A DNA stretch of 64,000 bases from Microbacterium sp. CGR2 (GTDB lineage: Bacteria > Actinomycetota > Actinomycetes > Actinomycetales > Microbacteriaceae), in assembly GCF_003626735.1 (NCBI RefSeq), contig NZ_RBHX01000001.1, positions 310,001-374,000 on the forward strand, in the 5' to 3' direction. The position numbers and the translations under genes were made by a program. Under the pieces are notes generated by a model. That model saw only the letters and a program-made list of their open reading frames with translations, was not told the DNA's origin and ran no database searches. Shown here piece after piece: positions 42,131 through 45,063 of this stretch (position 1 is the first letter of the stretch; each line of letters opens with the position of its first letter).

Positions 42131-43273
42131 TCACGCGATCGGCAGACGCGCCGACACTTCCCAGTGCTCGTCGACTTCGCCGGCGCTGAATTCTCCGCGC
42201 GCGCCGAGCACGCGCTCGGCCATTCGCCCGAGACCCGTACTGCTCGACGAAAGTTGACGCCGCGGCGTGGTCGGAAGCGGACTCCGCAGCGTGAGGGCCG
42301 CCGTGTCATCGTCGAGGTCGAGTCGGATGAGGACTTCACCGGGTCCGGCGTACTTCAAGATGTTCGTCGCCGACTCACGGACGATGCGCGCCAACACGAT
42401 CTCCGCGGCGCGCGGTATGCGCTCATCGCGGGCGTCTCCGACGATGCGCACGGAATGTCCGGCCGATTCGAACTCCTGGCGCGCCTCATCGATCGCGTCG
42501 GCGAGGTCGCCGGTCTGCATTCCGGCCGAACGGGGTCCGTCGTCGGCGATGTCGATGACGAACCGGAGGTCGGCCATCGCCTTGCGCGCTGCCACGCGGA
42601 TCGCTTCCCGCGAGCCGAGGCTCGTCTCCGGGTCTTCGAGCATCTGCACGTGCAGAGCCACCACAGTGAGGTGGTGGGCGATACTGTCGTGCAACTCGCC
42701 GGCGATCCATCGTCGCTCGGCGAGAACTGCCTGTCGTTCCTGTTCCGTACGTTCCGCGAGCTCGAGCTCCAGGCGCCGCCCGCGAGCGGAGGCGATTCGA
42801 AGCGCGAAGCCGACGGCACCGGCAACTGCGGCGAAGATGAGGAAGAGGCCGACGTTCACATCGACATCGGCGTCGCCGTTGGCGACAACCGCCGCTGCGA
42901 CCAGAAAAGCGCCGGTGTACGACAGGATCAACGAGGTCCACCCCAGCCTCATGACCAGACCGGCCGCCACAGCGGCGGCGGTCAGAACCTGAGACTCGGA
43001 ACCTACGAGAAAAGACAACGCGAACACGACGCCGAGGGCGCCTGTCGCGATGAGGGGATTCCAGATATAGAGAGCGAAAACGGCTGTGGAGGAAATGCTC
43101 ACCAGTACGGCGAGCGGACTCACACCCGGAGTCGCAAAGAAGGAGATGAGGTCGAGGACGATGGTGATGGAGATGATCGCCAGGATGACGATGCGCTCTA
43201 CAGCGCTGAGCCTTTCGCCTCGGCCTAACCGGAGTGCATCTGCAGAATCCCCGGTCGTGTGGTCGAAGGCCAT
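42131..43273 (-). CDS. Membrane sensor histidine kinase (HisKA_3 type)
   Basis: A 380-residue kinase. Residues 27-160 hold about five or six transmembrane helices with only short loops and no large extracellular domain, a layout that suits sensing inside or at the membrane. A coiled segment leads to the HisKA_3 domain with His195 in ELHDSIAHHLTVV. The ATPase domain has RESATNILKYAGPG and TGLGRMAERVLGARG. AGGAGA precedes the ATG. A 15-codon peptide ORF ends 29 nt upstream on the same strand. The likely partner regulator is divergent at 43501. Confidence 0.9.
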   Translation of the reverse strand: MAFDHTTGDSADALRLGRGERLSAVERIVILAIISITIVLDLISFFATPGVSPLAVLVSISSTAVFALYIWNPLIATGALGVVFALSFLVGSESQVLTAAAVAAGLVMRLGWTSLILSYTGAFLVAAAVVANGDADVDVNVGLFLIFAAVAGAVGFALRIASARGRRLELELAERTEQERQAVLAERRWIAGELHDSIAHHLTVVALHVQMLEDPETSLGSREAIRVAARKAMADLRFVIDIADDGPRSAGMQTGDLADAIDEARQEFESAGHSVRIVGDARDERIPRAAEIVLARIVRESATNILKYAGPGEVLIRLDLDDDTAALTLRSPLPTTPRRQLSSSSTGLGRMAERVLGARGEFSAGEVDEHWEVSARLPIA

Positions 43274-43302
43274 GGTTCACTATCTCCTATTCGCCAGGTA
43301 CT

Positions 43303-43350
43303 CTAGCGGACGAGACCAAAAAACTTGCCAACCTGCTGCCAGAAAGTCAT
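43303..43350 (-). CDS. Candidate 15-aa amphipathic peptide upstream of the kinase gene
   Basis: ATG at 43350 encodes MTFWQQVGKFFGLVR and a TAG stop. The Shine-Dalgarno GAGAGG is 8 nt upstream. As a helix, Phe3, Trp4, Val7, Phe10, Phe11 and Val14 fall on one face and Gln5, Gln6, Lys9, Gly12 and Arg15 on the other, with net charge about +2. This resembles membrane-active or signalling peptides such as phenol-soluble modulins. It lies 29 nt before the kinase start, so it is probably co-transcribed. A GTG three codons upstream is an alternative start. Too short for similarity-based proof. Confidence 0.5.
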   Translation of the reverse strand: MTFWQQVGKFFGLVR

Positions 43351-43500
43351 AGCGTTCACCTCTCTTTGCTAGTCGAACGTCGAATGCGATACCCCATCTT
43401 CTCGGCGATCAAAACTGAGCACATCTGTCTCAAGTTCAGACCTCGCTAGCCAAAGGTCTACGTCTCCGCGATCGAAAGCCACCGCCGTTAGGCTTCCTCC
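43351..43500. promoter_or_regulatory. AT-rich divergent control region of the peptide/kinase and regulator genes
   Basis: 150 bp of lower GC than the surroundings lie between the peptide ORF and the regulator gene. On the plus strand GTCGAACGTCGAA (43373-43385) contains two copies of GTCGAA, 7 bp apart, close to the peptide start, and may be a regulator site. The right end holds the TAGGCT -10 of the regulator gene. No further ORF is supported. Confidence 0.4.
43489..43494 (+). promoter_or_regulatory. -10 hexamer TAGGCT of the response regulator gene
   Basis: TAGGCT ends 6 nt before the ATG at 43501, so the regulator mRNA is probably leaderless while the divergent peptide and kinase have Shine-Dalgarno sites. 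Confidence 0.5.
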
Positions 43501-44157
43501 ATGCCTGATATCCGTGTCGTGATCGTCGACGACGACCCCTTGGTCCGATCTGCGCTGTCGCACTTCGTCTCCCGCGACCCGGAGATCACCGTCGTGGCGC
43601 AGGCGGAAGACGGTCTCGAGGCGATCGAGACGGTGGAGCGCGAACAGCCCGACATCGTCATGATGGACGTGCAGATGCCGGAGATGGACGGCATCACCGC
43701 AACGCGGGCGATCGTCGATCGGTGGCCCGACGTGCGCGTGCTCGCCGTCACGACCCTTGACGGCCGTGACACCGTGCTCCCCATGCTGAGCGCCGGCGCA
43801 TCCGGCTACCTGCTGAAGGATTCCACCGCGGAGGAGATTCTCGCGGGGGTGCGCGAGGTACACAGCGGAGCGAGTTCCCTGTCGCCGCGGATCGCGTCCA
43901 TGCTGATCCGGCACGTGCGCGACACCGAACCGGCCGCCGTGGACACCGCGGCGCTGGAGCCGCTGACGGAGCGCGAAGCAGAAGTGCTCCAGTGCCTCGC
44001 GAAGGGCATGTCGAACGCGGAGATCGCGCGCACGCTCATCGTGTCCGAGGGGACGGTGAAGGCGCACCTCGGCCGGATGATGTCGAAGTGGCACCTGCGC
44101 GATCGCGTGCAGATCCTCGTCACGGCTGCGCATGCCGGGCTCGTGAGTTTCCGCTGA
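43501..44157 (+). CDS. LuxR/NarL-type response regulator
   Basis: A 218-residue regulator: receiver with acidic VIVDDDPLV, phospho-acceptor Asp56 in IVMMDVQMPEMDG, Lys in YLLKDSTAEE; LuxR helix-turn-helix LTEREAEVLQCLAKGMSNAE near residues 155-200. It matches the HisKA_3 kinase class encoded divergently 227 bp away, so the two probably form a pair. Control of the peptide/kinase promoter is likely but not shown. Confidence 0.93.
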   Translation: MPDIRVVIVDDDPLVRSALSHFVSRDPEITVVAQAEDGLEAIETVEREQPDIVMMDVQMPEMDGITATRAIVDRWPDVRVLAVTTLDGRDTVLPMLSAGASGYLLKDSTAEEILAGVREVHSGASSLSPRIASMLIRHVRDTEPAAVDTAALEPLTEREAEVLQCLAKGMSNAEIARTLIVSEGTVKAHLGRMMSKWHLRDRVQILVTAAHAGLVSFR

Positions 44158-44199: not shown

Positions 44200-45063
44200 T
44201 CAGACGGCCAGCAGAACGATCCCGAGCACCACGACCAGCGATGCACCGATCCGCCAGCCGGGTCGCGATTCACGCAGCGCGAACACGCCGAACAGGCTCA
44301 CCAGCACCACGCTGACCTCGCGCAGCGGCGCCACCAGCGCGACGGGCGCGATCTGAATGGCGTTCAGCACGAGGATGTACGACAGCGGCGAGAGGATGCC
44401 GAAGGCGAGGATCCGACGCCACTGCGTGCGGCCGAGCGCCCACACGGCGCTCCAGCGCCGACCCACCGCCAGAGAGTAGAACGGCACCTGCAGCAGTGTC
44501 GTCCCCACCATGAACGCGACCGGTGAGACGTCCCAGGTGCGCACGACGTGCGCGTCCCAGATCGTGTAGACCGCGATGGCCACCCCGGTGAGCAGCCCGA
44601 ACAGCAGCCCTGGGTCGATGCGACGCGTGGCTTCGCCGCGTCCGCGATCGACCAGGCCGATGGCCACGACACCGACGATGATGGCGGCGACTCCGACGAG
44701 AGCGACCGGGGAGGGCCTCTCCCCGAGCAGCAGCACGGCCACGATCACCGACAGGAACGGTCCGGTGCCGCGAGCGGTGGCGTAGACGGTCGACAGGTTG
44801 CCCTCACGGTAGCCGCGTTGCAGCACGGCCATGTACAGGACGTGCAGCACGGCCGATACACCCACCCCGAGCGCGAACGAGCCGAGGTCGTCGGTGCCGA
44901 GACCGCCGGTGAACGGCACGACCCCGATCCAGACGATGACGCTGCTGACCGCGCCCCACCACAGGAACGGCGATCCCGCGCGACTGACACCGTGGGCGAT
45001 GATGTTCCAGGCGGCGTGCGCGACGGCGGCCCCGAAAACCAGGGCAAACGCGAGAGCAGACAC
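44200..45063 (-). CDS. EamA/DMT-family transporter
   Basis: A 287-residue membrane protein with ten predicted helices in two EamA repeats (AAVAHAAWNIIAHGVSRAGS at the N-terminus; APLREVSVVLVSLFGVFALR near the C-terminus). Substrate unknown; many relatives export amino acids or metabolites. Start codon GTG at 45063; TAAGGT ends 8 nt upstream, and AGGAG is next to the GTG, so the initiation mode is unclear. Confidence 0.85.
   Translation of the reverse strand: MSALAFALVFGAAVAHAAWNIIAHGVSRAGSPFLWWGAVSSVIVWIGVVPFTGGLGTDDLGSFALGVGVSAVLHVLYMAVLQRGYREGNLSTVYATARGTGPFLSVIVAVLLLGERPSPVALVGVAAIIVGVVAIGLVDRGRGEATRRIDPGLLFGLLTGVAIAVYTIWDAHVVRTWDVSPVAFMVGTTLLQVPFYSLAVGRRWSAVWALGRTQWRRILAFGILSPLSYILVLNAIQIAPVALVAPLREVSVVLVSLFGVFALRESRPGWRIGASLVVVLGIVLLAV

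Follow-up and report, generated by a model that had tools for sequence, protein, structure and literature searches.

A short conserved peptide gene directly ahead of HisKA_3 sensor kinases in Microbacterium, a candidate partner of the kinase sensor

Introduction

Peptide-linked two-component signaling is known in kind, the agr system (AgrBDCA) being the peptide quorum sensing of Firmicutes. Gene callers commonly skip genes of mini-peptide size. For Microbacterium, a 2016 review of quorum sensing in Actinobacteria states that evidence of such signaling is lacking, even at the bioinformatic level (PMC4748050). Here we analyze a window of 64,000 nucleotides from Microbacterium sp. CGR2 (contig NZ_RBHX01000001.1), in which a 15-codon open reading frame (ORF) lies just upstream of a sensor histidine kinase gene, with a NarL/LuxR-type response regulator encoded divergently. 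A sequence-only reading of this DNA had described the ORF as carrying a Shine-Dalgarno sequence and ending 29 nt before the kinase, and both the sequence and the ORF tables bear this out. Searches of an open-access literature library turned up no description of the peptide family, and its anatomy is unfamiliar.

By computation, the peptide gene shows translation-type selection, very frequent linkage to one clade of kinases, recurrence beside paralogues of the window kinase, and co-divergence with the kinase sensor. From these comparisons, we lean toward the view that the peptide is a ligand or cofactor of the neighboring kinase's own sensor.

Results

The short ORF is conserved at orthologous loci

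Searching 198 Microbacterium genomes, the window's own included, with the kinase returned 46 intact close orthologues (63–100% identity, the window's own counted) and one broken one. A short ORF with an ATG stands at about the same place in all 46 intact loci, 15 codons long at 44 of them and 13 codons at two, and is also present at 19 of 19 named Microbacterium loci, whose genomes are partly shared with the set of 198. Peptide and kinase are mostly 28–32 nt apart in this clade, and the regulators are 74–89% identical at the 45 other intact loci. The sequence-only reading had proposed looking for the ORF at such loci; it proved to be conserved throughout (46/46 and 19/19), with codon-biased substitution.

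The 15-codon form occurs in 40 distinct nucleotide versions, in all of which W4 and G12 are invariant and in 36 of which R15 is kept. The clade's peptide is hydrophobic and tryptophan-bearing, with a mostly basic C-terminus. The ratio of non-synonymous to synonymous changes, taken over single-base codon differences, was 0.38 of expectation in the peptide frame, compared with 0.96 and 3.1 in the other frames; these are pairwise counts rather than counts of independent events. The stop codon drifts over the 46 loci, with TAG at 23, TAA at 19, and TGA at four. Comparative sequence analysis thus confirms the 15-codon ORF as a real, conserved gene with translation-type selection.

At the broken locus (L048; G033:C1:594500-598000), the kinase matches in pieces and in different frames, the regulator match is partial, and an intact peptide was not found. 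Either joint decay or sequencing errors would produce this pattern, and the two cannot be told apart.

A peptide family recurs beside paralogous kinases

We then considered 40 more distant Microbacterium kinases, 27–42% identical to the window kinase where aligned. A regulator match is adjacent in 34 of them, and most paralogues have a divergent NarL-type regulator. Short ORFs ending in C-x5-C were present on the kinase strand at 21 of the 34 regulator-linked loci and on the opposite strand at none; with ORFs bearing a W-core counted as well, the figures were 29/34 and 0/34, both rules having been set after a first view of the paralogue ORFs. None of the six distant kinases without a regulator match had an ORF of either kind. 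Shuffled versions of the 40 regions gave a mean of 0.45 motif hits over 60 rounds, with a maximum of two. A stricter rule, admitting only the longest ORF, returned 14/40 forward hits and none in reverse (0.4 in shuffles), and dropping the ribosome-site filter gave 21/34 forward and 1/34 reverse among the paralogues. Inspection by eye added two further clear relatives of the peptide, at L075 and L077; loci L086 and L094 are one and the same.

Family peptides are about 12–35 residues long and have in common an ungapped C-terminal core of 12 residues. Across 65 unique cores, position 1 is W in 51 and position 9 is G in 55, or R. Position 4 is L, V, or I; position 5 C, G, or A; position 6 K, R, or Q; position 8 L or F; position 10 I, L, or F; and position 11 either C or another residue, often bulky. 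Cysteine occupies both positions 5 and 11 in 25 cores, neither in 36, the first only in four, and the second only in none. Ahead of the core are one to more than 20 residues, hydrophobic in several members. The window peptide has three such residues and a Cys-less core, WQQVGKFFGLVR, with Cys 5 retained in some orthologues (WQQLCWILGITR); its C-terminal core with the conserved spacing, upstream of a clade kinase, places it in the family. Among paralogues, the core is retained even as the distance from peptide to kinase changes, paralogue kinase starts being computed guesses. NCBIfam gave no match for three longer family peptides at E 1, nor did Pfam for two family peptides at E 0.01.

In a helical peptide, cysteines with a spacing of six residues would not point toward each other. 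A closed loop is therefore more probable than a helix for the C-x5-C members, which argues mildly for an oxidizing, external location. Judged from these sequences, the tiny peptides appear to form a family in which every member has a sensor kinase of its own, in a module that has been duplicated and has diverged.

The window's genome holds a second module, with its kinase at G000:C1:3431286-3432437 (L088/L168) and the C-x5-C peptide MGLNLYDIGTLALFTIADNADLGDWMCKVLGICA. The computed GTG start of this kinase overlaps the peptide stop codon.

Peptide and kinase clade are very frequently linked

A clade profile (A2), built from 18 kinases of the clade, was used to search 199 family genomes and 296 class genomes. 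Within the genus, 81 of the 198 genomes encode at least one clade kinase (E <= 1e-65), with 95 such kinases in all. An intact peptide accompanies 89 of these, a broken one is found at L048, and none was found at five, in a tally that joins the clade-kinase rows to peptide results of separate searches. Twelve genomes have two clade kinases each, and one fragmented genome has three. Outside the genus, four other genera of the family have clade kinases (E < 1e-75), with a C-x5-C ORF at 6/6 loci, two of them seen only without the ribosome-site filter.

For comparison, we took 45 other HisKA_3 kinases from the family and class searches (L102-L122, L125-L148; E ~1e-53 to 8e-44). Only one had a motif hit, in a poly-Cys ORF that we judge to be a chance find; the kinase starts were extrapolated from the profile and the divergent regulator was left unchecked, hence they are not matched controls. 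With the ribosome-site filter, hits came from 5/7 clade loci and 0/45 others (one reverse hit); without it, from 7/7 and 1/45. All members of a later set of nine clade kinases had a peptide (9/9), one with an opposite-strand hit too; this set was searched with the motifs applied to the 40 distant kinases, but starts were accepted less strictly and the region searched was displaced, and several loci in the set are orthologues of earlier ones. One clade kinase, L203 (G123:C33:1926-3059), has one in-frame TGA, with its peptide ORF intact.

Spread by plasmids was also considered and rejected. A plasmid search gave no match to the second module's kinase at E 1e-30, and the window module lies between gntR and eamA in 20/20 close relatives.

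The peptide diverges with the sensor

We compared peptide-core distance with the distance between sensor regions (kinase residues 20–160), holding catalytic distance (residues 180–375) constant. The partial correlation was 0.48 in the close clade (46 loci) and 0.38 among 26 paralogues, and 0/2000 label permutations reached it in either set. Windows of 12 residues taken from the regulator reached at most 0.24 in the close clade (45 windows) and 0.36 in the paralogues (70 windows); those from the catalytic region reached at most 0.25 (24 windows) and 0.44 (31 windows, one of them above the peptide). The sensor's own 12-residue windows averaged 0.30 in both sets. Median divergence was 0.44 for the peptide and 0.43 for the sensor, on different scales. 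These tests omit L060, L062, L073, L082, and L085, with uncertain starts or cores, as well as L056, L069, L083, and the other genera, and the two 13-residue peptides were gap-padded. Because its divergence follows that of the sensor more closely than any regulator window does, and more closely than almost every catalytic window, the peptide appears to evolve like a piece of the sensor.

Layout and neighborhood of the module

Table 1. Features of the peptide-kinase-regulator module and its adjoining transporter gene, in window coordinates.
Feature	Position	Strand	Remark
15-aa peptide gene MTFWQQVGKFFGLVR, stop included	43303..43350	-	Cys-less member of the 12-residue-core peptide family
Shine-Dalgarno-like AGAGAGGTG of the peptide gene	43357..43365	-	GGAGGTGAA in many orthologues
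Spacer from peptide stop to kinase start, 29 nt	43274..43302	-	largely conserved ACCTGGCGAATAGGAGATA
Sensor histidine kinase, HisKA_3 type, 380 aa	42131..43273	-	ATG at 43273
NarL/LuxR-type response regulator, 218 aa, divergent	43501..44157	+	Response_reg and GerE matches
Inverted repeat AGACCT...AGGTCT in the regulator-peptide spacer	43438..43460	.	candidate regulator-binding site
EamA-family transporter gene, adjoining the regulator	44203-45063

The peptide ORF runs on the minus strand from an ATG at 43350 through 15 codons to a stop codon at 43305-43303, and the kinase's own ribosome-binding site, AGGAGAT (43288-43282), lies inside the spacer that follows. The HisKA_3 kinase and the adjacent Response_reg-GerE regulator together make up a HisKA_3/NarL two-component system. 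The sequence-only reading was right to call a matching NarL-type regulator divergent, as the Response_reg and GerE matches attest. The range it gave, 43273-44157, holds the peptide and the regulator, whereas the kinase itself lies at 42131-43273. Its compact membrane sensor is less secure than it was put: an AlphaFold model of the kinase predicts six N-terminal helices and no ectodomain, but with low confidence there (pLDDT only ~40-60). Family matches of the kinase (DesK, MadS, NarX, and UhpB types) fall mainly over the catalytic half, with NCBIfam scores far below cut-offs, and the regulator's second-best NCBIfam model is MadR, likewise far below its cut-off.

The inverted repeat, a candidate autoregulatory site, has the consensus-like form TAGACCTTTGGCTAAAAAGGTCTA. 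Allowing up to three mismatches, a search of 15 genomes recovered a single copy, located at the module, in each of nine, and a reversed control found none; the other six, the window's own genome among them, gave no match at this tolerance. A regulon reached through this repeat was rejected as a candidate, with only the module's own site recovered, in 9/15 genomes. Two more conserved blocks, around CAGATGTGC and CCGAGAAGAT, lie between the inverted repeat and the peptide (43370-43440, minus strand), a stretch in which a promoter scan gave no sigma-70-like hit.

In the window and in 20/20 close relatives compared, the module is flanked by GntR-UTRA and EamA genes. The ORF beyond eamA is presumably aminopeptidase-like. 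At L150, L152, L164, L167, and L173, an extra long ORF of ~480-590 aa, which we take to be of HNH/DUF222 type, lies between the regulator and eamA. A conserved partner gene was sought and not recovered: three other modules have unrelated scanned neighbors, and L171 and L174 (one protein each) gave no match. No immunity gene adjoining the module was recognized among the scanned neighbors. No ComQ isoprenyl transferase lies beside the module, where the neighbors are GntR-UTRA and EamA; the check for ComQ covered these adjoining genes only.

How the peptide may act

In the mechanism we favor, the short gene would be translated, probably from a transcript shared with the kinase, and its product would serve as a dedicated partner of the adjoining kinase. 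The C-terminal core of about 12 residues would engage the membrane-embedded sensor region and thereby set kinase activity. Because 12–15 residues are too few to span the membrane, the peptide would sit at or in the sensor's membrane face. The kinase would then phosphorylate the divergent NarL-type regulator, which would probably bind the inverted repeat and adjust both the peptide-kinase operon and itself in a feedback loop. Peptide, kinase, and regulator would form one module that has undergone duplication and divergence, with a distinct peptide in every copy.

The sequence-only reading had listed the peptide as a possible signal. We favor this option, or that of a sensor cofactor, because the peptide co-diverges with the sensor and its core recurs beside paralogous kinases. 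The peptide may be exported, as a pheromone, or may act inside its own cell, as a cofactor. It seems that the product rather than mere translation matters.

Several points weigh against a ligand or cofactor. The kinases on which the A2 profile was trained were all peptide-bearing, so the edge of the clade may lean toward such kinases, and no recognizable peptide was found at L057, L059, L061, L065, and L084, two of which are also without a regulator match. The correlation test removes shared ancestry only in part. Covariation taken column by column, which we tried as a route to a docking site, had a mixed outcome: the sensor holds 19 of the top 25 columns in the close clade (~13 expected) but 10 of the top 25 over all loci (~11 expected). 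The search of 15 genomes revealed no further target of the inverted repeat. As for export, the only transporter adjoining the window module is the EamA-family gene, kept in 20/20 close relatives, and no recognized peptide-export or processing gene recurs among the scanned module neighbors. AgrB had no match in the window's genome, by a weak control (1/14 genomes responding, below cut-off), and the C39 peptidase had none either, by a control that responds in 8/14 genomes.

A narrower version of the ligand reading, which we hold only tentatively, is that the peptide is exported as an intercellular or autocrine pheromone, as in agr or Com systems, and that an extracellular disulfide closes the C-x5-C members. 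Core cysteines 5 and 11 do go together (25 both, 36 neither, 4 first only, 0 second only), several members have a hydrophobic N-terminus before the core, and the sensor is polytopic with no ectodomain predicted, albeit in a low-confidence model. Genomes with two clade kinases (twelve) or three (one, fragmented) would suit such a system, as would an upstream inverted repeat possibly used for feedback. This version has to contend, however, with the failure to identify a known exporter or processing protease (AgrB and C39 peptidase unmatched in the window's genome), with a window peptide whose three residues before the core leave it no leader, and with a peptide that diverges about as much as the sensor does (medians 0.44 and 0.43, though measured on different scales) and is not hypervariable. 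Were the pheromone version correct, which we regard as possible but doubtful, this would be a ribosomally made actinobacterial pheromone family in which each peptide is matched to its own polytopic HisKA_3 kinase, giving parallel channels per genome. Such pheromones would have a 12-residue core with, in many members, a probable C-x5-C disulfide ring of seven residues, and they would be made without a recognized exporter, protease, or modifier gene alongside.

Alternatively, the ORF may be a leader peptide whose translation or stalling controls transcription or translation of the kinase, its product having no role. The ORF is short and directly upstream, at a spacing of mostly 28–32 nt in the close clade. 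A paralogue clade, L049-L051, has a long GC-rich hairpin between the peptide stop and the kinase (~1800-1857 in L049 and matching places in L050 and L051; z -3.2, -2.7, and -1.6, respectively), possibly a further layer of control in that clade. The peptide stop is overlapped in L086-L089 by the kinase start, as computed and itself a guess, which leaves no spacer for structure and makes translational coupling possible. Over the stretch from the peptide ribosome site to just inside the kinase, however, 46 close-clade sequences showed no conserved RNA fold (mean z 0.31, 0/46 below -2). A scan of the window region found no terminator-like and no sigma-70-like site, and its sole Rfam match (E 0.85, inside the regulator, far below the gathering score) is at chance level. 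On these grounds, a leader with an RNA switch was rejected as a candidate. Moreover, it is amino acids rather than codons that are conserved, across kinases only ~30% identical, and peptide distance fits sensor distance better than any regulator window and almost every catalytic window do. We therefore consider a leader unlikely; the version in the sequence-only reading, in which the leader controls kinase translation, is disfavored by the missing conserved fold in the close clade and by a spacing that varies among paralogues, on computed kinase starts, while the core is kept.

The peptide could instead be cargo, a membrane-active effector resembling phenol-soluble modulins or bacteriocins, with the two-component system sensing damage or giving immunity. 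The hydrophobic, tryptophan-bearing peptide of the window clade with its mostly basic C-terminus would fit an effector, as would MadR, far below cut-off though it is, as the regulator's second-best model. Yet no immunity gene was recognized among the scanned neighbors, and co-divergence with the sensor region is not required of an effector. The helical hydrophobic moment of the window peptide is 0.39, a value reached by 18% of shuffles of the same residues, so amphipathicity is not above shuffles and was dropped as the key property. The membrane-active amphipathic helix of the sequence-only reading is thus not established, the moment being unremarkable and the C-x5-C relatives suggesting a closed loop. 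We regard an effector as improbable.

A chance reading frame within a conserved promoter or 5' region, for which the partial conservation of the intergenic region at the DNA level could be cited, is rejected as having next to no probability, given a codon bias specific to one frame, a stop codon that drifts across orthologues, motif ORFs specific to the kinase strand, and an amino-acid core that recurs beside divergent, paralogous kinases.

Discussion

If the peptide is a ligand of the adjoining sensor, the input of a whole sensor-kinase clade would be written directly ahead of each kinase gene. Even as an intracellular cofactor, it would, to our knowledge, rank among the shortest kinase partners known.

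Known systems resemble this module in part. Kinases of the DesK, MadS, NarX, and UhpB types share the HisKA_3 catalytic half, but the matches are mainly confined to that half, and the NCBIfam scores are far below cut-offs. Phenol-soluble modulins are, like the peptides of the window clade, short, hydrophobic, and leaderless; in contrast, the module peptide is encoded with a kinase, many members are C-x5-C, the helix moment is not above shuffles, and no exporter of the modulin kind was recognized beside the module. Pheromones exported by the double-glycine/C39 route differ in that the C39 peptidase transporter is unmatched in the window's genome.

In agr, too, a short peptide gene is paired with a polytopic sensor kinase and a regulator. 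The module differs in its regulator, which is NarL/GerE rather than LytTR and divergent, and in its HisKA_3 kinase; AgrB has no match in the window's genome, and the module has no thiolactone precursor layout. In ComQXPA of Bacillus, likewise, the peptide gene immediately precedes that of a polytopic kinase, the regulator is of NarL type, and the peptide has a conserved Trp. Unlike in ComQXPA, no ComQ-like gene is next to the module, the regulator is divergent, and the peptide is ~12-35 aa with a 12-residue core. Finally, some small proteins modulate kinases, such as MgrB acting on PhoQ (PMC8404706); like the peptide as we propose it here, MgrB is a tiny protein dedicated to one sensor kinase. 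MgrB is a 47-aa membrane protein, whereas the window peptide is not long enough to cross the membrane, and its gene immediately precedes that of its kinase.

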